A stretch of 63,464 nt of DNA, taken from positions 1-63,464 of the forward strand of contig DATKVX010000056.1 in the NCBI GenBank assembly GCA_035529855.1, in the 5' to 3' direction. How positions within the stretch are numbered: position 1 is the stretch's first letter; each line of letters begins with the position of its first letter. The position numbers and the translations under genes were made by a program. This stretch comes from a bacterium. GTDB lineage: Bacteria > RBG-13-66-14 > B26-G2 > WVWN01. Below the pieces are notes generated by a model. The model was given only the letters and a program-made list of their open reading frames with translations. It searched no databases and had not been told where the DNA came from. Of the stretch, positions 44,937 to 55,953 are shown piece by piece.

Positions 44937-45353
44937 TTACAGATACCCGCCGAAGAATATCAGGTACCCGGCGACGAGCGGCGTACAGCAGAAGAACATC
45001 CCGCTCGCCCGGCCGAAGTAGGACCCGTCCAGGTAGATGTCGCCGTCGTCCTCTATGCGGCCCTTATAGGAACCGTCGATATAGATGTCGCCGTCGTCTT
45101 CGACGCGGCCGTAGTACGAGCCTTCGCGGTAGATGTCGCCGTCGTCTTCGAGCCGGCCGGCGTACGAGCCGTTCACGTAAACGTCGCCGTCACTCTCCAG
45201 CCGGCCCCGGTACGAGCCGTCGACGTAGACGTCGCCGTCTTCCTCGATGCGGCCCTCGTACGAGCCGTTCACGTAGATGTCGACGTCGGCGGCCGCGCAG
45301 GCCGCGGCGCCGAGGAACGCAACCGCAAACGCCGACCAAACGCGACAAGTCAT
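44937..45353 (-). CDS. Secreted protein with six 16-residue repeats
   Basis: A 138-residue protein, starting at ATG 45353 behind GGAAG, with a signal peptide ending ACAAA. Residues 25-120 are six tandem copies of a 16-residue unit, consensus DGDVYVDGSYRGRLE, with Asp, Gly and Tyr fixed and the Tyr-Xaa-Gly step varied (SYEG, SYRG, SYAG, SYYG, SYKG, SYFG). The last 20 residues are hydrophobic with a Cys pair (MFFCCTPLVAGYLIFF) and could anchor it in a membrane. A regular beta-solenoid or beta-flower shape is likely. The role is unknown. Confidence 0.7.
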   Translation of the reverse strand: MTCRVWSAFAVAFLGAAACAAADVDIYVNGSYEGRIEEDGDVYVDGSYRGRLESDGDVYVNGSYAGRLEDDGDIYREGSYYGRVEDDGDIYIDGSYKGRIEDDGDIYLDGSYFGRASGMFFCCTPLVAGYLIFFGGYL

Positions 45354-45452
45354 AAGGTTACTTCCGTTTCTCACGCTGCCGTACGCGCCATTTTAACCGA
45401 CGGCGGGGCGGTTGTTCAAGGATAAACGTTGCGGGCCCCGTAAACGTCTAAC

Positions 45453-45496: not shown

Positions 45497-45973
45497 ATGG
45501 CTACCACGGAAAAGGAAGCGAAAATGGGTACCGACGCGATATCGGCACGAACCGTCGCGCCGCTCGGCCGCTTATCGACGGCGCTGTCCGTCGCCGTTTT
45601 GGCGGCCGCCGTGGCGTCGGTGGGCGGAACCTCCTGCGGCCCCGTCAAGTCGTCGCACGAAACGGCCGGCGTCGTCAAAACGGAGGACTTCGTCGCGGGC
45701 CAGATCGTAGTCTGGTTCGACGACGACCTCGGCGACGCCGCGGTCGACGAGTTCGTCGCGAAGACGGGCGGCGAGATACTCGAGCGCAGCAGCGTCACGC
45801 CGTCGCGGGTGGTCGTGGCCGTCCCCGCGGGCGAGGAGGACCGCTACGTCGAAGCCTACCGGCGATTGGAAGAGGTCCGGGCCGCGGATAAGAATTACAC
45901 CTTCCGGGCCTTGCCGGAGGGCGGCGGGGCCGGCTCGAGCGACGCCGGCAAATATAAAATAAACGGCGAGTAA
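45497..45973 (+). CDS. Stand-alone subtilase pro-domain-like protein
   Basis: A 158-residue exported protein, starting at ATG 45497 behind AGGAGG. A long basic N-region precedes the signal segment LSVAVLAAAVASVGG and Cys52. Residues 70-140 align closely with the N-terminal domain of the next gene's protease: GQIVVWFDD against GEVVVRFAD, then SSVTPSRVVVAVPAGEEDRY against SAVTPSRVVLAVPAGEEESY, and RAADKNYTFRAL against RAAERNYVFHAL. No catalytic domain follows; the chain stops after a Gly/Ser tail. Subtilase pro-domains fold and inhibit the enzyme, so this may be a chaperone or inhibitor acting in trans. The protease gene begins 100 bases downstream. Confidence 0.75.
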   Translation: MATTEKEAKMGTDAISARTVAPLGRLSTALSVAVLAAAVASVGGTSCGPVKSSHETAGVVKTEDFVAGQIVVWFDDDLGDAAVDEFVAKTGGEILERSSVTPSRVVVAVPAGEEDRYVEAYRRLEEVRAADKNYTFRALPEGGGAGSSDAGKYKINGE

Positions 45974-46073: not shown

Positions 46074-47603
46074 ATGCCGTACCGTATACTGTTGACGCCG
46101 CGACTCGTTAGGCCGGGCCGGCTGGCGGCCGGTGCCGCGGCCACACTTCTAATCGCCGCGTTCGCAACCCCTCCTCCCGCGAACGCCGCGACGGTCAAAA
46201 CGTCGTACGACGTGGACGGCGCCGGCAAAAGCGCGGAATACGTCCCGGGCGAAGTAGTAGTCCGGTTCGCGGACGCCGTGAGCGCCGCCCACATAGACGC
46301 CGCCGTCGAGCGAGCCGGCGGCAACGTCGTCGCGCGCAGCGCCGTCACGCCGTCGCGGGTCGTCCTGGCGGTCCCCGCGGGCGAGGAAGAATCGTACGCC
46401 AAGAGGTTTCGAGCGCTGCGTTCGGTCCGCGCGGCGGAGAGAAACTACGTCTTCCACGCGCTCTGGAAGCCCAACGACCCCCTCTACCAATTCCAGTGGC
46501 ACTTCAACAAGCCGGGATTCATCTACGCCGAGCAGGGTTGGGACGTCGAGCGCGGCGACCCGCGCGTCATCGTGGCCGTCATCGACACCGGCGTGGCCTA
46601 CGAAAACCATCCCATCCCGTCGTACGAGCGGGAAGAGGTCGACGGCTCGAGCTACGTTCAGGCGCCGGACCTGGCCGGCACGAGCTTCGTCGCCGGCTAC
46701 GACTTCGTACACGACGACGAACACCCTAACGACCAGAACGGCCACGGCACCCACGTCACCGGGACGATCGCGCAGACGACGAACAACAACCTCAACGTCG
46801 CCGGCCTGGGCCACCTCTGCAGCATAATGCCGATACAGGCCCTGGACAACTCGGGGGGCGGGACGTCCGCCGACATTGCGGACGGCATAGACTTCGCCCG
46901 GGAGAAGGGCGCCCACGTCGTCAACATGAGCTTCGGCGGGAGCGCCTTGACGGAAATAATCAAAACCGCCTGCGACGACGCCGAGGCCGCGGGCCTGGTC
47001 CTCGTCGCGGCCTCCGGCAACGACGGCGCCGACACCGTACTCTACCCCGCGGGTTACGACAGCGTCATCGCGGTGGGCGCCGTCGATTACGACGGCGAGT
47101 TGACGTGGTACTCGAACTACGGCATAGGCCAGGAACTGGTAGCGCCGGGGGGCGATACCAAGGTCGATAAAAGCAACGACGGCTACCCCGACGGCGTATT
47201 GCAGATGACGTACGACCAGATGTACGAGCCGGGACTGCTGCCGGGCTTCCCGGAGGCGCTGGCCAACGTAACCACCTTCACCAGTTACTTCCTCCAGGGG
47301 ACCTCGATGGCCTCTCCCCACGCCGCCGGCCTGGCCGCGCTCATCATCGCCAGCGGCTACACCGACAACGACGACGTGCGCAATAAATTGCGCGGGTCCG
47401 CCACGGACAAGGGCCTTCCGGGATACGATACCCAGTACGGCTACGGCCTTATCAATTGCAAGGGCGCGCTCGAGCCGGGCGTCCCGGAAGTCGACGAGTG
47501 CGGCAACTGCGCGCAGCTCTCGCTGGCCGAGATCGCCCTCTTCTTCGGCCTGTTCTTCGGCGCCTACGGCCTTATATTCGTCAGACGTAAGTTCAAGGCC
47601 TAA
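46074..47603 (+). CDS. Subtilisin-like serine protease (S8) with C-terminal sorting tail
   Basis: A 509-residue secreted protease. After the signal peptide, residues 55-130 form an inhibitor-type pro-domain. The catalytic triad can be read as Asp171 in AVIDTGVAY, His224 in NGHGTHVTG and Ser411 in GTSMASPHAAG. The oxyanion Asn lies in AASGNDG. The catalytic domain ends near 475. The tail has CGNC, SLAEIALFFG, a hydrophobic stretch with AYGLIF, and the basic end RRKFKA. It resembles in layout the PEP-CTERM, GlyGly-CTERM and MYXO-CTERM signals, and is shared with the C13-type protease at 48617. Start ATG 46074 behind AGAGG; a terminator follows. Confidence 0.92.
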   Translation: MPYRILLTPRLVRPGRLAAGAAATLLIAAFATPPPANAATVKTSYDVDGAGKSAEYVPGEVVVRFADAVSAAHIDAAVERAGGNVVARSAVTPSRVVLAVPAGEEESYAKRFRALRSVRAAERNYVFHALWKPNDPLYQFQWHFNKPGFIYAEQGWDVERGDPRVIVAVIDTGVAYENHPIPSYEREEVDGSSYVQAPDLAGTSFVAGYDFVHDDEHPNDQNGHGTHVTGTIAQTTNNNLNVAGLGHLCSIMPIQALDNSGGGTSADIADGIDFAREKGAHVVNMSFGGSALTEIIKTACDDAEAAGLVLVAASGNDGADTVLYPAGYDSVIAVGAVDYDGELTWYSNYGIGQELVAPGGDTKVDKSNDGYPDGVLQMTYDQMYEPGLLPGFPEALANVTTFTSYFLQGTSMASPHAAGLAALIIASGYTDNDDVRNKLRGSATDKGLPGYDTQYGYGLINCKGALEPGVPEVDECGNCAQLSLAEIALFFGLFFGAYGLIFVRRKFKA

Positions 47604-47628
47604 ACGGCGCGACGTTGAGAAAGAAAGG

Positions 47629-47650
47629 CCGCCCGCTCGGGCGGCTTTTT
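47629..47650 (+). terminator. Intrinsic terminator after the subtilase
   Basis: GCCGCCCG-type stem closing on GGGCGGC, then TTTTT. Confidence 0.8.
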
Positions 47651-47848
47651 ATTACGACTTAATTCCGGCGAAATACCCCGAAAAACGAACGCCGCTCCGG
47701 GCGTTAAAGCGAAAACCAGCAACAACCAATTTTAAATAAAAAAAGGCCAGGCGCTCTTCGACGGAAGAACCGACTTTAAAGCGCTATTGCGCTTAACCGA
47801 TTATAAGCTACTATACCAATCGCATTTGTCAAGTAATTAAGTTTACCC

Positions 47849-48023
47849 TTGACATATGCAAGAATTTATTTTAAATATAACACGCTTTTCTTAAGCAGGC
47901 TGGCTCCCCACGGGGTAGAGGATGCCGCGGCCGGCGGTAACGAGGGGTTAAATAAAAACTACGCCGACGCGTCAGTAAGCATCTACCTGGGTTGGGCCTT
48001 AGGCCTGCCCGGGATTTTAATTT
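47849..48023 (+). promoter_or_regulatory. Promoter and leader of the second protease pair
   Basis: TTGACA at 47849-47854 and TAAATA at 47872-47877, 17 bases apart. About 180 leader bases follow before ATG 48062. They contain a terminator-like hairpin (47986-48013; CCTGGG pairs with CCCGGG with GGCC inside) and ATTTTAATTT. The 47651-47848 stretch is AT-rich with no gene seen. Confidence 0.5.
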
Positions 48024-48061
48024 CGGTTCGTCGCCGGCGATACGGGCCCCAAGGAGCCGTT

Positions 48062-48499
48062 ATGAGGGTAAGGCCGGTTATCATCGCAATGATAGCGTTT
48101 ACATTTGTTATGACCGGTTCGTCGTTCGCGCCTCCGCCGCCGTCGTATATATCGTCCTTGTTCCCCGACGACGCCTGGGAGAAGTCCCGCAACGCCGTCA
48201 AGCAACTGTACGACCCGGCGGAATTACGGGAATATCGAATATACATCTTCCCCGAAATCGTCGGGCCGCGCTACGTCGTGCGAGAACTACACGGGGAACC
48301 GTTGGAAGGTCCCGACGCCAAAAGCTGGCTGTTCTTCGTGGACGAAGTTCCGCCCGCCGACTGGGGGCATCCGTGCCGGGTGGTATTCATAACGACCGAC
48401 ACGTGCGAGCTAACAGATTATGAGTGCCGGTTCCCGCCCGCGAACGTCGACGAATTTCGGGACGTAACTAAAGAGGCGTTGGCTTTGTTGTGCGAATAA
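48062..48499 (+). CDS. Stand-alone paralogue of the C13-type protease N-domain
   Basis: A 145-residue exported protein, starting at ATG 48062 behind AAGGAG, with a signal peptide (PVIIAMIAFTFVMTGSSFA). The frame is open from TTG 47849, but that triplet is the -35 box. Residues 70-140 match the N-terminal domain of the protease encoded next: SWLFFVDEVPPADWGHPCRVVF against SWVYFVDDVPGADWGHPAKLVY, and CRFPP, DVTKEAL against CHFPP, GITKGAA. It stops at that domain, with no catalytic part. A regulatory or inhibitory role in trans is inferred from the layout, which repeats that of the subtilase pair. Confidence 0.75.
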   Translation: MRVRPVIIAMIAFTFVMTGSSFAPPPPSYISSLFPDDAWEKSRNAVKQLYDPAELREYRIYIFPEIVGPRYVVRELHGEPLEGPDAKSWLFFVDEVPPADWGHPCRVVFITTDTCELTDYECRFPPANVDEFRDVTKEALALLCE

Positions 48500-48616
48500 A
48501 CCCTTTTAGGGCGCGGTTGGAGGAGGTGATTTTTATAGCGCGAGAACGGGGCGGTTAGGATGAATAGTGGGGATAGGATAATTTACCGGGGATTAAATAC
48601 CGACGGAGGTCCTTAC

Positions 48617-50020
48617 ATGTATAGAAAAGCGCTACCGTTCGCAGCGGCGCTGGCGATTATACTCGCGGCGGCGGCGATCGCCCAGGAGGAAGTCGCGCCG
48701 GGGGATATGTTCCTGAAGGCCGAAAGGTTCAAACTCCGCAGCGATGACGCATACAAAATAGTAGTAACCGAGGTCTTCAAGGGAGATATCGGCGAACGGG
48801 AAGTTTACAACAGCCCGGGGCCGGTCCGCGCCGGAACCGTAATTGAAGACGTGATGGGCCACAAGTTCGACGCCCCGAAAGTAGACTCCTGGGTATACTT
48901 CGTCGACGACGTACCCGGGGCGGACTGGGGCCATCCCGCTAAACTGGTCTACGCGGACGCGATGAAAGGCGCACCCTCGGTAATCGATTGCCATTTCCCT
49001 CCCAAGATGCTACCCGCGTTTGGGGGAATCACAAAAGGCGCCGCCGAGGAAATCGGCCGCATTAAGGACTATGAGTGGTGGAAAGAAATCAAGGTCCCGG
49101 CCTTAGAAAAGTACCCCTTCAAAGAGCCCTCGAAGAATAAAAAGTATCACGTCCTGATAAGCGGGGGCGTAAACGCTTGGATGAATAACCCTCGCTATCT
49201 CAACGACCTCAAGTTCATATACTACACGCTTCAAAAAAGATTCGACGGCAACGGCGACGACAACGTCTACGTTATATATGCCGACGGCGTAAGCGTAGAC
49301 CTCGACGGGGACGGCGACAACGACGTAGATTACGCCGCGACGGAGGCGAACGTCGTGGGTGTACTAACGACGTTGGCCGGGAAACTCGGTAAGGACGACA
49401 TACTCTTCGTCTACGTAAACAACCACGGCGGTTACGAAAGCGGCAAAGACTGCTACATATGCCTTTACTACGCCGAGCAAATTACGGACGACCGGTTCGC
49501 CGCTTTGATCAATAAAATCCAGGCCGGCCAGATGAAGTTCGTCTTCAAACAATGCTACAGCGGCGGCATGGTCGACGACCTCGCCGCGCTATCGGGCAGA
49601 AATTTAGTCGTCGCGACCGCGTCCAAATATGACGAGTCCGCATACGGTGCCGAATCCCCCCCGGGATTTGGCGCGGATGGATACGGCGAATTTACCTATT
49701 GGTGGACGGCCGCAGTTTACGAAGGCTATCCGCCGACCGTTTTCCCCGGAACCCATCCGACTTCTCCGGACCCTAAAACCGCCGACGTGAATAATGATAA
49801 TAAGGTCAGCATGAAAGAGGCGTTCGACTTCGCGAAGAAGTACGACAGGCGCCCGGAACACCCGCAGTACTACGCCTCCCCCGCGGCGGCTAACGAGTGG
49901 ACCCTATGTACGAAACCTTGCGGATGCGGCGAAGCGTCGGCAGCCGAAGCCGCAGCCTTCTTCGGATTCTTCGCCGCGTGCTACGGAACCATTTTACTAC
50001 GGCGGAAATTTAAGAGTTAG
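48617..50020 (+). CDS. C13/caspase-fold cysteine protease with C-terminal sorting tail
   Basis: A 467-residue secreted protein. I chose ATG 48617, eight bases after GGAGGT. A signal peptide ends AAAIAQ. Residues 25-150 are the N-domain shared with the preceding gene. Residues 175-390 are a legumain/caspase-like domain: HVLISGG, YTLQKRFDG, His270 in VYVNNHGGYE, Cys313 in FKQCYSGGMVDDL and VVATASKYDESA. Calcium-loop-like DLDGDGDNDVD and DVNNDNKVSMKEAF are present. The tail has CGCG, SAAEAAAFFG, CYGTILL and RRKFKS, matching the subtilase tail. Specificity (Asn, Asp or basic) is unknown. A terminator follows at 50038. Confidence 0.85.
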   Translation: MYRKALPFAAALAIILAAAAIAQEEVAPGDMFLKAERFKLRSDDAYKIVVTEVFKGDIGEREVYNSPGPVRAGTVIEDVMGHKFDAPKVDSWVYFVDDVPGADWGHPAKLVYADAMKGAPSVIDCHFPPKMLPAFGGITKGAAEEIGRIKDYEWWKEIKVPALEKYPFKEPSKNKKYHVLISGGVNAWMNNPRYLNDLKFIYYTLQKRFDGNGDDNVYVIYADGVSVDLDGDGDNDVDYAATEANVVGVLTTLAGKLGKDDILFVYVNNHGGYESGKDCYICLYYAEQITDDRFAALINKIQAGQMKFVFKQCYSGGMVDDLAALSGRNLVVATASKYDESAYGAESPPGFGADGYGEFTYWWTAAVYEGYPPTVFPGTHPTSPDPKTADVNNDNKVSMKEAFDFAKKYDRRPEHPQYYASPAAANEWTLCTKPCGCGEASAAEAAAFFGFFAACYGTILLRRKFKS

Positions 50021-50079: not shown

Positions 50080-53000
50080 TTATTTATCCGCAACCTCGAG
50101 CCGGCCCGAAGCCGTGTTCGAGCCAATATCGGGGCTGTACATGCCGTAGATGCGAGCCGGCAGCGCCGCGTACTCGCCCGGCACCTCGGCGCGGAGGCGA
50201 TAGGTGACCACCGTCTCGCCGGCGCGCAGCCGCTCGAAGAAGACGTTGCGCTGCTTGTTCCACAGCTCGACGTACGCGTCCAGCGGCCAGTTGTAGCCGG
50301 AACGCGTCTCGAGGAAGATGAGGCCCGCGGCCTTGGGGTCCTCCAACACGACGTAGTCGAAGTCGTACGGCGAGTTTATCTTCAGCTCCACCTCGAGCTC
50401 CTCGCCCAACTGCAGCGCCCTGTTCAGCGGCAGCCGCTTCTCCTTGAACTTGCCGCGCTTGAACTCCTTTTTAATGATGTAGAACTCCCGCTCGAGCGTT
50501 ACGGAGCCCTGGACCGCGGGGAGGTCCTTCCCCTCGGCGTAGTACTCCACCGCCATCGTGTAGAACACCGGCCCCTCGCCCGACGTACGCGTCAAGCTCA
50601 TCTCGTTCCCGCCGGCGGTGAACTCGTCCGGCGTGAACGTTACGGCCTCGCCCGGCGCCTCGTAGGCGGTGGGCTCGAGCTCCATGCCGCCCTCGGCCTT
50701 GCCGGCGCGGTACGCCACGACGATGGGCGCCGCCAACTCGGGCCGCGCCAGGATGTAGCGTATGAGCGCGGTGGTCGCCGCGGCGGAGTCCTTGGTGGAT
50801 TTCCAGGAAGCGCCGCGCCGCTGGTCGACGAGCCAGTCCACGACGTACGGGAGCTGCGGGCCGTCGGCCTGGTACGCCAGCTTGACGTCGAGGACTTTGG
50901 CCGTCGTCTCGACGCCGTCGTCCCACCACCGCCAGCAGTTCTCCGGTTCCTCGCCCCAGTGGAGCGTGTTGTCGCGCCCCAATTTGGCGCCGTTGTCCAA
51001 ATTCCTGAGGACCACCGCCAGGCGCTGCTCGTCGCCCAGTTGGTGCAGGACCGAGGCCAGCAGCGCGAGGCTCATGTGGCTGTGCGGCGAGCGGTACTCG
51101 AAGTAGTAGTCGGCCACCTCGGCCGCGGCGTCGTCGTCCGCCTTCAACATGCCCGTCCGCAACGCGACGTCGCAAATATAGAGCGAGAGCGCCGCCGGAT
51201 AGCGGTCGCGGTTGTTGCGCCAATCCTCGACGTAGCCGGCGAGGTACTTCTCCCCCGCAACGTACATCTTGTCCACCCTGGCGGCCGCGTTCTCGGATAG
51301 GAACGGGTTGCCGCGCAGCGTGCCGAGGCCGTCGACGGCGTAGGCCGTCATATACGGCGATTCGCGGCCGCCCTTCCACCACGGCCAGCCGCCTTCCGAG
51401 GTCTGCTGCTCGGCCAGCCGCGCCAACCCTTCGTCGACGGCCTCCGTCAATCCCTCGGCCAGTTTGGACTGCTCGAGGCCCAGGTCCGCCGCGGCCGCGG
51501 CCAACAGCGCGTTCATCCGGAAGCGATTGAGCGTCTGCTCGACGCAGTCGTACGGGTATTTTTCAAAGAAGTCGAGGCCGTGGCTCAGCGTCGCCGCCAG
51601 CGACGGCGTGACGTACAGCTCGCCGGCGAAGGTGTCCGGGACCATACCCTCGGCGACCGTGAGCTCGTGCGATACCTCCTTGCGCAGCCGGCCGCCGAAC
51701 GCCTGGCGGATCTGCGTGCCGTGGGGATATATCGGCAGCGTGAGCGCCGCGGCGTCGGACTCCACGTCGGTCAGGGCCGACGTCGTGAGACGGGCCTCGC
51801 CCGCCGTCGGCGCCTCCACCCACCGGTAGAGGACCGCCTTGCCGTCGGGCGGAACGTCTTCCGTCGTCGACGCCTCGCCCCGTACGCCCACGAGCCCCTC
51901 CTCCTCGACGGACAGCTTCAACTCCTTGGCCTCTTTTAAATAATTGTGGCCTATGGCCGTCAAGCGCGCGACGTCGCCGGCGACGAAGTAGCGCGGCGCC
52001 TTCAACCGGGCGATGACGAACTTGTTGACCTCGAACGAGCTCCAGCCCCAGCCGAAGCGCTGGCCGCGGTCGAGCGCGAGCGCCATCAGCCGCCATTCGG
52101 TCAGGTTGTCGGGGAGCTTGAACGAAGCTTCCCCGTCCCCCGCGTCGGAGGTGCGGACGTGCGGCAGCCACACCGCGGTATCGGCGAACTCCTTGCGGAC
52201 CTCGGCCTCGGCGAACTCGCCGGCCTTCTCCTTGTCGTCGGCCTCCGCCCGCTTCAATTTGCCGGCCTCGGGCGGCGCCGCTTTGGGCTCGGCCAACGAC
52301 ATCTCAGCCTCTCCCTCTGCCGAGCCGCCTATGCCGTAACCGCCGCCGGCACCCATGCCGCCGCCCCGGTACGTGATTCCCGATAGCGAGTCGACGAGGC
52401 CGATGCCGCGGTCGCCCCGCGCCCGGTAGTACGCCGCCTCGCGCCCGAGCAGGTCCACGTCGGCGACGCTGAAGTACGCGTCGAGGTTCGAGTCGACGAA
52501 AGCCGGGAGGTAAAGGCGCTCGAGCATCCCCGCGGCCGGGCCCCAACGTTCGACGTCTTCCGGAACGAAGTACGTCCCGTACGCGCCGTAATAATACGGA
52601 TAGTAGGGGAACCAGAAGACGGCGCGGCCTACGAAGCCGCGGTAAGCGAGCGAGTCGTCCTGCTGCAGGTAGCCGTAGCGGCCCAGCGCGCCCTCGAACG
52701 CGGAAGGCACGGCGTACGTCCGGTCGGGCCGCAGCGCCAGCAGCGACGCGTCCACCGCGGCCAGCGATACGTCCGCGGCCAGCGGTAGGCCGGCGGGGTC
52801 GGCGCACGTAACCGTCACCGTCGCCTCCTCGCGCGGCCGGTAGACGCCGCAGCCGGCCTCCACCTCCACCTCCATCCGGACGTTGGCGTTGGTCACGTAC
52901 AGCGACTCGTTGTCGGTCCACGACGAGCCGTCCCGTATCACCGCGGCATAAAGGCTGCAGGAGGGTACCATGGCGTCGTCCACCGCCAGCGTGAACGTCG

Positions 53001-55953
53001 CGCTCGAGCCCAGCTCCGCCTTGGACAACTTGACGTGCCGGACGCCTACGACCCTTCCCGAGTAAATCGTTATCAAACACTCCGCGTCGTCGAAGCGCGA
53101 CTCCAGCGAGACCTCGACCTCGTCGCCCAGCGTGGGGTAATTTTCGCTGACGGTTATGCCAATCTCCGGCTTGCGTACCGTCGTCTCCACCGGCCCCGCC
53201 ACGAACTCGACGGTGGCGGAGGTCTCGTACTCGGCGCCGTTCATCCCCTTCACCCGGGCGACGACTTCCACCTCGTCCGGCGGCTCGACTAGCTCGAACT
53301 CGGTGACGCCCTGGCCGTCGGCGTCGGTGACGGCTCGCGTCTCGTAGAGTACGTCGCCGCGGTAGTACCCGCGCTCGCTGTCCCACAGGTACTCGTACGC
53401 CGCGACCGCGACCTCGCTCGAGACCGGATTGTCGTACCAGTCGTCGGTCCACAGGTCCACCTTCACCGTCTCGCCGGCGCGGTAGTCGTATTTGTCGGTG
53501 GAGACGCTGACGAAGCGGTCCGTCTTGAACGTGTTCGCATAGGCCGTCTCCTCGACGACGCGCTCGCTCACGTCCGTCACCTTGAGGTGTATCGTGAAGT
53601 AATTGTCGTACCGCTTGGCCCAGGCGGTATCGAAGGCCAGCCGGAATTTACCTTCGGCGTCCAGCACGCCTTCGCCCTTCTTGACAAGCTTATCGTACTC
53701 GTAATCTTTGGGCGTGTAGCCGCTGCGATATACTTCGTACGACAGTGCGGCGCCGGCCATGGGCGCGCCGAAGTAGTACGCGCCGACGACGTCGAGCTCC
53801 ACCTTCTCGCCGGAGAAGTACCGGTCTTTGGCCGTCGTGCCGACCACCTCGTACTCCGGCTTCTCGTACTCCTCGAGGTCGAAGGTGCCGGATACGGAAT
53901 ATTCCTTATCCTCCTCCTCCCACTTTACGTATATCGTCTGGAGTCCCAGCCGGACCCCCGCCGGGAGCTCGACCTCGCCGGCGACGGTGCCAAACTCGTC
54001 CGTGACGGCCTTTTCCTTCCAGACCTCCTCGCCGTCGGGCGAGGATAGAACGACCTCTACGTCGCGGCCCGCCACCGGCGCCAGGACCTTCTCTATGTAA
54101 TCCACCCGGCGCACGATGCCCTTGAAGGATACCTTGTCGCCGGGGCGGTAGAGCGGCCGGTCCGTAATGACCGTTCCCGTTATGCCATCGCGGTCGCGCG
54201 GTTGCCAGGCGGTGTTGCACCGGTAGACGGCGGGGCCGAGCGCCGACTCCAGAACGAAGAACGCGGTGCTGCCCTTCTGGAATTTGGTCAGGTCTATTAA
54301 AACGCCGTCGCCGCGGGGCGCCGCGTCAACGTCGAGCGCGTCCACGACTTCTTCGTTGTAACCGCGTTCGCCCGGTTTGTAATAGATATTGTAGGCCCAA
54401 ATGTCGCCGAGGGCCGCCGGCGCGCCGGTTTGCGCGTCGACGAGTTGGAGGAAGAGCTCCTCGTCGTCGGTGGCCGTTAAGGCCGCGGCCCCCGTCAACA
54501 AGAACATCGCCCGCGAGAGCTCGTCCCCCGCGCGCGCCTCCGCCACGTACAGGCCCGGCGCGAGGTCGTCGCGCGTCGCGACCACTTTTTTGACGTGGTA
54601 GTCGTCCTCCGCGCAGCCGGTCGCGACGGTCCACCTCGCGACTTCGCCTTTGACCCCCGGCAGCTGCGCCGTCGGGAGCGGCCGGTATTCCTCGACGCGG
54701 GCCACGCCCTGCCCTTCGGCCTCGGCGGTAGTCTCCGCCACCGACTCGACCGCCGTGAGGTCGCGTTGCAGCTCGAGGTACTTCGCCGGGTCGACGTCGT
54801 AAACCGTCAGCTCGACCTCCGGGATTATACGGCAAGCCAGCTCGAGCGACACCGGCGGCGTCTTCGCCGGGTCGGCGTCGACGTGCAATAGCGCCAGCGC
54901 CGGCGCGCGCAGGTGCCGCGCGTACCGGCGGTTCAGCTCGGCGTAAATTTCGTTTTCGAGCGAATCGGCGAGCTCGTCAAAGGCCGTGGCCGCCGCGGCG
55001 GGGTCGTCGAGGAACGTGACGTCGTAGTGGGCGAGCGCCGCCCGCGCCAGCAGCGCCCCGGGCGCGTCGCCGTACGAGGCCGCTATCTCCTCCAACTTCG
55101 CGCGGCCCGCGGCGAAGCGCCGCTCCTGCAGCCAGCGGTCGTATTCGTCGGGGGCCAGGTTCGCCGCCTCCCAAGCGTCGTCGTCGGCCGGCAAATACGC
55201 GAGCTCGAGTAGCGCCTCCTCGACGGCCAGGACCGAGCGCATGTCGTCGCTCATCTCGAGCCGGCTTACGTCTTTCAGGTAAGGCGCGCGCCGGCCGTAA
55301 CTGCGGCTCGAGTCGTCGCGGTCCCAGTCGAAGTACGGGTACATAATCAGGTAGTTCACGACCAGCCGGTCGGCGAGGTAAGCCCGCTCGTCGCCGGCGG
55401 CGTTTTTAATAAGGCCCTGGTACACACTCTTGGCCTGCTTCAACGCGCGGCGCCGCAGCTTGTCGAATTTGGCGCGGTCGTCCTCGTCGCCGTAGACGTA
55501 GAAGTCGTACTTCTCGCCGAGGTACGACTGCCAGCCCCAGCTGTCGTAGACGTGGCTCGTCTCCGAGTACGCGTCTACCAGCAGGTCCGCGGCGTCGGCG
55601 GCCCAGACCGATTTCTCATGGCGCTTGAAGTACGCGGCAAAGCCCTCGTCGGCCTGGGGCCACATTTCGAGCTGGAGGTAGCAGCGCAGCGCGACCAGGT
55701 CGCCCTCGTCTCGAGCCGGGCCGTCGGGCCAACGTTTGGCGAGCTCCTCGGCCGCGGCCAGCGCCCACGCATACGACGCCTCGTCGAAATACGTCCGGGC
55801 GTCGGCGAGGGCCGCGTCGGCGCTCGCCGGCGGATTATCCTTGTAGTCGGGCCCAACGGGCGGCGGCGCGTCGGAGGTGTGGCCGTTGGCGACGGCGGCG
55901 GCGGCCGCGGCGACGACCAACGTTAGGGCGAGAACGTTTGTCAAGAGCCTCAT
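50080..55953 (-). CDS. Alpha-2-macroglobulin family protein with thioester
   Basis: At 1957 residues this is the longest gene here. A signal peptide without lipobox (VVAAAAAAVANG) precedes a TPR-like, Ala-rich N-terminal part (30-300). MG-type beta domains follow, with VTDRPLYRPGDKVSFKGIVR near 590-610, the MG2/MG3 signature. A Gly-rich then Glu/Lys-rich stretch near 1195-1250 is the likely bait region. The thioester motif is CVEQ at 1470-1473, followed by the alpha-alpha barrel TED domain and a receptor-like end. Such proteins trap proteases by covalent bonding. Most bacterial ones are lipoproteins beside a pbpC gene; neither holds here. Confidence 0.9.
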   Translation of the reverse strand: MRLLTNVLALTLVVAAAAAAVANGHTSDAPPPVGPDYKDNPPASADAALADARTYFDEASYAWALAAAEELAKRWPDGPARDEGDLVALRCYLQLEMWPQADEGFAAYFKRHEKSVWAADAADLLVDAYSETSHVYDSWGWQSYLGEKYDFYVYGDEDDRAKFDKLRRRALKQAKSVYQGLIKNAAGDERAYLADRLVVNYLIMYPYFDWDRDDSSRSYGRRAPYLKDVSRLEMSDDMRSVLAVEEALLELAYLPADDDAWEAANLAPDEYDRWLQERRFAAGRAKLEEIAASYGDAPGALLARAALAHYDVTFLDDPAAAATAFDELADSLENEIYAELNRRYARHLRAPALALLHVDADPAKTPPVSLELACRIIPEVELTVYDVDPAKYLELQRDLTAVESVAETTAEAEGQGVARVEEYRPLPTAQLPGVKGEVARWTVATGCAEDDYHVKKVVATRDDLAPGLYVAEARAGDELSRAMFLLTGAAALTATDDEELFLQLVDAQTGAPAALGDIWAYNIYYKPGERGYNEEVVDALDVDAAPRGDGVLIDLTKFQKGSTAFFVLESALGPAVYRCNTAWQPRDRDGITGTVITDRPLYRPGDKVSFKGIVRRVDYIEKVLAPVAGRDVEVVLSSPDGEEVWKEKAVTDEFGTVAGEVELPAGVRLGLQTIYVKWEEEDKEYSVSGTFDLEEYEKPEYEVVGTTAKDRYFSGEKVELDVVGAYYFGAPMAGAALSYEVYRSGYTPKDYEYDKLVKKGEGVLDAEGKFRLAFDTAWAKRYDNYFTIHLKVTDVSERVVEETAYANTFKTDRFVSVSTDKYDYRAGETVKVDLWTDDWYDNPVSSEVAVAAYEYLWDSERGYYRGDVLYETRAVTDADGQGVTEFELVEPPDEVEVVARVKGMNGAEYETSATVEFVAGPVETTVRKPEIGITVSENYPTLGDEVEVSLESRFDDAECLITIYSGRVVGVRHVKLSKAELGSSATFTLAVDDAMVPSCSLYAAVIRDGSSWTDNESLYVTNANVRMEVEVEAGCGVYRPREEATVTVTCADPAGLPLAADVSLAAVDASLLALRPDRTYAVPSAFEGALGRYGYLQQDDSLAYRGFVGRAVFWFPYYPYYYGAYGTYFVPEDVERWGPAAGMLERLYLPAFVDSNLDAYFSVADVDLLGREAAYYRARGDRGIGLVDSLSGITYRGGGMGAGGGYGIGGSAEGEAEMSLAEPKAAPPEAGKLKRAEADDKEKAGEFAEAEVRKEFADTAVWLPHVRTSDAGDGEASFKLPDNLTEWRLMALALDRGQRFGWGWSSFEVNKFVIARLKAPRYFVAGDVARLTAIGHNYLKEAKELKLSVEEEGLVGVRGEASTTEDVPPDGKAVLYRWVEAPTAGEARLTTSALTDVESDAAALTLPIYPHGTQIRQAFGGRLRKEVSHELTVAEGMVPDTFAGELYVTPSLAATLSHGLDFFEKYPYDCVEQTLNRFRMNALLAAAAADLGLEQSKLAEGLTEAVDEGLARLAEQQTSEGGWPWWKGGRESPYMTAYAVDGLGTLRGNPFLSENAAARVDKMYVAGEKYLAGYVEDWRNNRDRYPAALSLYICDVALRTGMLKADDDAAAEVADYYFEYRSPHSHMSLALLASVLHQLGDEQRLAVVLRNLDNGAKLGRDNTLHWGEEPENCWRWWDDGVETTAKVLDVKLAYQADGPQLPYVVDWLVDQRRGASWKSTKDSAAATTALIRYILARPELAAPIVVAYRAGKAEGGMELEPTAYEAPGEAVTFTPDEFTAGGNEMSLTRTSGEGPVFYTMAVEYYAEGKDLPAVQGSVTLEREFYIIKKEFKRGKFKEKRLPLNRALQLGEELEVELKINSPYDFDYVVLEDPKAAGLIFLETRSGYNWPLDAYVELWNKQRNVFFERLRAGETVVTYRLRAEVPGEYAALPARIYGMYSPDIGSNTASGRLEVADK

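Follow-up and report, generated by a model that had tools for sequence, protein, structure and literature searches.

Among the described systems closest to the one considered here, the MYXO-CTERM signal is characterised by a Cys motif given as GCGC, and the case of MrtJ, which serves a single JDVT-CTERM protein, indicates that one-client sorting systems exist (PMC11980579); in the mycosins, extracellular S8 proteases provided with a signal peptide, it is the tail of the protein that anchors it (PMC10924467). The locus that we compare with these systems lies in a window of 63,464 nucleotides (the whole stretch of DNA that was analysed, contig C56) from a genome of Candidatus Coatesbacteria of 2.62 Mb and 97% completeness, named G000 in the following; three congeners (G001, G002, and G003) were studied together with it, within a comparison of 14 genomes of the phylum, and two congeneric records are labelled Zixiibacteriota. 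The best reading of the data is that a re-addressing tail would have turned two proteases from cargo of the type IX secretion system (T9SS) into enzymes anchored in the inner membrane; the tail is probably a membrane anchor for both proteins, and not a piece of a new genome-wide sorting system.

A C-terminal tail common to two unrelated proteases

The features of the locus are collected in Table 1. The preliminary description of this DNA had noticed that two unrelated proteases carry the same C-terminal tail, that this tail is laid out in three parts (Cys motif, hydrophobic run, and basic end), and that its pattern corresponds to no known CTERM signal. These observations hold good: the ORFs and both of their ends were confirmed, Pfam assigns the two proteins to the S8 and C13 families, respectively, and 19 of 35 aligned residues are identical over the last 35-36 residues; the conservation of the tail among S8 orthologues fits a three-part signal, and no CTERM model of NCBIfam reaches its cut-off (see below). 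The S8 protease ends with DECGNCAQLSLAEIALFFGLFFGAYGLIFVRRKFKA and the C13 protease with KPCGCGEASAAEAAAFFGFFAACYGTILLRRKFKS; common to both are CG(x)C, SxAE as part of a longer SxAExAxFFG, YGxI, and RRKFK followed by one small residue. The Cys motif reads ECGNC in the S8 tail and PCGC in the C13 tail, the latter containing three Cys (LCTKPCGC), the third of which is found four residues upstream of the first motif Cys.

Table 1. Features of the protease locus, with positions on the window.
Feature	Position	Strand	Description and evidence
S8 subtilase gene	46074..47603	+	509 aa; signal peptide, prodomain, Asp/His/Ser motifs intact, C-terminal tail; Peptidase_S8 (Pfam) E=2e-47
C13 (legumain-like) cysteine protease gene	48560..50020	+	486 aa; signal peptide, His (NNHGG) and Cys (QCYSGG) motifs, C-terminal tail; Peptidase_C13 (Pfam) E=1e-9
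S8 tail, Cys motif DECGNC	47493..47510	+	DECGxC in 4/4 congeneric S8 proteins; mean pairwise identity of the DECGxC..SLAE segment 82%
S8 tail, hydrophobic helix IALFFGLFFGAYGLIFV	47532..47582	+	hydropathy scan; helix 484-508 in low-confidence model; 40% pairwise identity among orthologues
S8 tail, basic end RRKFK	47583..47597	+	sequence
C13 tail, Cys motif KPCGCG	49913..49930	+	sequence
C13 tail, hydrophobic helix AAAFFGFFAACYGTILL	49949..49999	+	sequence, hydropathy
C13 tail, basic end RRKFK	50000..50014	+	sequence
Stand-alone S8 prodomain copy	45497..45973	+	49% identical over 90 aa; Pfam PF22148 E=1e-8; directly upstream of S8 in 4/4 congeners
ORF between S8 and C13	47849..48499	+	related to C13 N-terminal domain (33% over 87 aa); no protease domain, no tail
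Alpha-2-macroglobulin	50080..55953	-	convergent with the proteases; bait region, CVEQ thioester-like motif

A chance likeness of the two tails is ruled out by shuffling each of them 20,000 times inside its own segments (Cys, hydrophobic, and basic), so that the composition of every segment was preserved: the observed alignment score of 92 compares with a shuffle mean of 25 (sd 8.5) and a shuffle maximum of 70, and was reached by none of the 20,000 shuffles. A recent copy of DNA from one gene to the other is ruled out too, the nucleotide identity of the two tails being 55%, against the 71-78% found between the S8 tail of G000 and its orthologues; since, moreover, no more than 9 of the 19 shared residues are encoded by the same codon in both genes, and one of the five in RRKFK, the two tails resemble each other as protein sequences. 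When the C13 tail was aligned with the S8 tails of the four genomes, the scores were 92 for G000, 85 for G003, 49 for G001, and 48 for G002; in a tail too short for a tree and of low nucleotide identity, these values suggest a derivation from an S8 tail of this lineage. The C13 gene, which within the genus occurs only in G000, would then probably have acquired its tail from an S8-type tail of the same lineage.

The conservation of the tail is far from uniform. Compared in pairs, the four S8 orthologues agree on average at 82% of the positions of the Cys motif, against 41% in the linker before it and 40% in the hydrophobic stretch after it; for the basic end and for the last part of the catalytic domain the values are 46% and 71%, respectively. 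A conserved Cys motif flanked by a variable linker and a variable helix is more than a plain membrane anchor needs, and shows that the Cys-rich motif at the membrane face is under selection. Possible roles are a disulfide among the Cys residues, the lipidation of one of them, or processing by an enzyme. All four S8 proteins with the tail have the Cys of LINC, which is missing from each of the 25 other subtilase matches, a distribution compatible with a gain together with CGxC and with a disulfide role; the mean pLDDT of the AlphaFold models (42 and 54) is too low to judge Cys pairing or distances.

As to the neighbouring genes, the protein consisting of a stand-alone prodomain may be a cognate inhibitor or a folding helper of the S8 protease. 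The alpha-2-macroglobulin gene directly follows the S8 gene in G002 and G003, and does not adjoin it in G001. On the opposite strand (44937-45374) a secreted protein with bactofilin-like GSY repeats is encoded, whose end GMFFCCTPLVAGYLIFFGGYL is a Cys-Cys and hydrophobic tail devoid of basic residues; this tail is conserved in G002 (GMFFCCSSLVAAYLIFFGGYL).

Distribution of the tail and of the T9SS sorting domain

Many secreted proteins carrying the tail had been expected in the preliminary description; a profile of the tail finds in the whole G000 genome only two convincing proteins, the S8 and the C13 protease, in each of the three congeners exactly one, the S8 orthologue (83, 67, and 64% identity), and in the remaining 10 genomes of the phylum weak matches only. 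Those of the weaker matches that were examined proved to be internal transporter helices or short ORFs, and none of three further DNA matches to RRKFK in the G000 genome is a Cys-plus-helix tail; among 576 ORFs (642 kb, a 24% sample of G000), no further protein combines a Cys motif, a helix, and a basic end at its C-terminus. In a scan of the S8 C-terminus against 84,980 species, carried out with narrow patterns which diverged tails of other phyla could escape, the CGxC tail was found only in the three congeners. Relatives of the C13 protease are absent from G001, G002, and G003 (G002 being a single contig of 2.3 Mb, rated 78% complete). Since the tail-bearing proteins are so few, a sorting system with many clients is unsupported. 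The restriction of the tail to these two genes, which had been counted beforehand against a sorting signal, is thus largely true inside G000, but the tail is kept in the S8 orthologues; the other reservation, namely that the tail might be a piece of a larger conserved domain, is ruled out, as the homology of the S8 protease to its T9SS-tailed relative stops before the tail.

This relative, the closest outside the genus, comes from RBG_13_66_14, elsewhere in the phylum, and is 51% identical, with an alignment extending to YGYGLIN..AL at the end of the catalytic domain; beyond this point it carries four Big_5 (Ig-like) domains and then a Por_Secre_tail domain (TIGR04183, 35.5 bits, with a cut-off of 23). 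The C13 relatives inspected in other genera, of about 900 aa, end with the same kind of T9SS type A domain, the four that were scored with TIGR04183 giving 29 to 47 bits, all above the curated cut-off; in Pfam and NCBIfam scans the TIGR04183/PF18962 domain is absent from the C-terminus of the S8 and C13 proteins of the window. These comparisons show that the tail is found where the relatives of both proteases bear a type A sorting domain of the T9SS, and the occurrence of the same exchange in both families is the strongest evidence that the tail contains information on location, 14 genomes being too few to fix the direction of the exchange. Since G000 itself has matches to SprA and 29 matches to TIGR04183, the swap is not a mere loss of the T9SS.

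All 14 genomes of the phylum have SprA matches and between 24 and 70 matches to the T9SS type A sorting domain. The T9SS seems, therefore, to be general in Coatesbacteria, and T9SS signals and SprA are here recorded in a little-studied phylum.

Membrane anchor or processed signal

We consider it moderately probable that a lineage-specific tail for membrane retention stands in for the T9SS signals on the two proteases. Both proteins would be exported by their N-terminal signal peptides, the hydrophobic helix would halt in the inner membrane, RRKFK facing the cytoplasm, and the active protease would be tethered in the periplasm, so that in this genus both enzymes would have left the T9SS route for the cell membrane; the Cys-rich motif would most likely strengthen the anchor by a disulfide or a lipid. 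This proposal is based on the position of the tail at the very end of two proteins without homology to each other, whose signal peptide, single C-terminal helix, and basic, cytoplasmic end, as read from sequence only, are those of a type I topology; on the swap with respect to the T9SS-tailed relatives of both proteases, in a genome which has kept the T9SS; on the lack in G000, within the families that were searched, of an enzyme dedicated to processing the tail; on the precedent of the tail-anchored mycosins; and on the distribution of the Cys of LINC. It is weakened by the conservation of the DECGxC..SLAE segment, which, between a variable linker and a variable helix, exceeds that of the last part of the catalytic domain, a pattern typical of recognised sorting signals.

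The latter pattern is what would be expected if the tail were, instead, a processed signal of the Cys type resembling MYXO-CTERM, in which the Cys is lipidated and the helix is cut by an intramembrane protease (an enzyme outside the known families, or the general rhomboid), leaving a lipid-anchored protease, with one or two clients per genome. We hold this to be rather unlikely, despite the three-part layout with a Cys motif conserved between variable segments, the resemblance of CG(x)C to GCGC, the one-client precedent of MrtJ, and the fact that the tail takes the place of another surface-sorting signal. Indeed, both proteins and five tails were scanned with the NCBIfam CTERM models up to E=10 (the filters of HMMER drop most matches above about 0.1), and none was found at cut-off, the best score being that of Heimdall-CTERM (13.1 bits versus a cut-off of 24); TIGR03901, the MYXO-CTERM model, gave no match in the same scan. 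In G000, moreover, the families of known sorting enzymes covered by the search are either absent or depart from the canonical form: exosortase (PF09721) has no match in G000, G002, and G003, and two sub-cut-off fragments in G001; the CPBP family (PF02517) has two matches each in G000 and G003, none with EExxxR, canonical members with this motif being found in G001, G002, and G006; the one ordinary rhomboid of G000 has counterparts in most of the phylum, tail-less genomes included. No sorting enzyme or intramembrane protease was recognised among the examined neighbours of the protease genes, and the clients are only two in the whole genome. A dedicated partner enzyme of known type is unlikely; processing by an enzyme of an unfamiliar kind or by the rhomboid is possible. 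It is rather unlikely that the tail represents a kind of Cys-containing sorting signal not described before, whose processing would fall to a general rhomboid or to an enzyme from outside the known sorting families, and which has displaced the T9SS signals on two unrelated proteases in one genus of Coatesbacteria.

Two groups of CPBP-family membrane proteins devoid of the catalytic EExxxR were observed in the genus, one made up of L062, L063, L066, and L071, and the other of L068, L069, and L072.

At the positions where the two helices coincide, Phe, Gly, and Tyr predominate, and the two genes are neighbours; from this it might be supposed that FFG and YG mediate a helix-helix contact, through which the S8 protease would pair with the C13 protease in the membrane, or both would bind a common membrane partner. 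Such a role is improbable, given that the tail is kept on the S8 protein of three congeners which have no C13 relative, so that pairing with C13 is not its original role, and that conservation is higher in the Cys motif than in the helix.

The C13 family, which includes legumain, also holds a subunit of the GPI transamidase; that the C13 protein might itself process the S8 tail, as this membership and the adjacency of the genes could suggest, is most improbable, the S8 tail being present in three genomes without C13 relatives and the relatives elsewhere bearing a T9SS domain like ordinary cargo.

Returning to the retention of both proteases in the membrane, the locus would be a compact natural case in which two unrelated secreted enzymes swap one address label, a folded T9SS domain, for another made of a Cys motif and a helix, with pairs of homologues available to distinguish a permanent anchor from a processed signal; it also suggests that tails of the Cys type may serve one or two proteins per genome, and not dozens.

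Comparison with described systems

The three-part layout is shared with PEP-CTERM/exosortase and GlyGly-CTERM/rhombosortase; the tails, however, contain neither a PEP nor a GlyGly motif, and G000 has no exosortase match and only one general rhomboid. JDVT-CTERM and MrtJ are similar in the Cys-containing tail and in the very small number of clients, but the tail genes described here have no recognised adjoining sorting enzyme and no match to a model. The likeness is greater with MYXO-CTERM and its myxosortase (MrtX, of the CPBP family), where the signal peptide, the C-terminal Cys motif (generic GCGC), the helix, and the basic end are all found, and the clients are surface adhesins or hydrolases, a protease among them, as are the S8 and C13 enzymes; the Cys motif, helix, and basic end are likewise recognisable, by their residues alone, in the S8 protein of four genomes and in the C13 protein. 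The differences are that MYXO-CTERM has dozens of clients, against two in G000, and that G000, which does not belong to the Myxococcota, has no match to TIGR03901 and no CPBP member with EExxxR. The mycosin MycP (TIGR03921), the best-scoring NCBIfam model of the S8 protease, is also an S8 protease with a signal peptide and a C-terminal membrane helix; the score of 143.3 bits is nevertheless below the cut-off of 278.75. Finally, the T9SS type A domain (TIGR04183/PF18962) occupies in the relatives of both proteases the same position as the tail, and either of them would set the final location of the enzyme; the T9SS signal folds into a domain of some 75 residues, whereas the tail is a membrane helix with a Cys motif, 36 residues in all.
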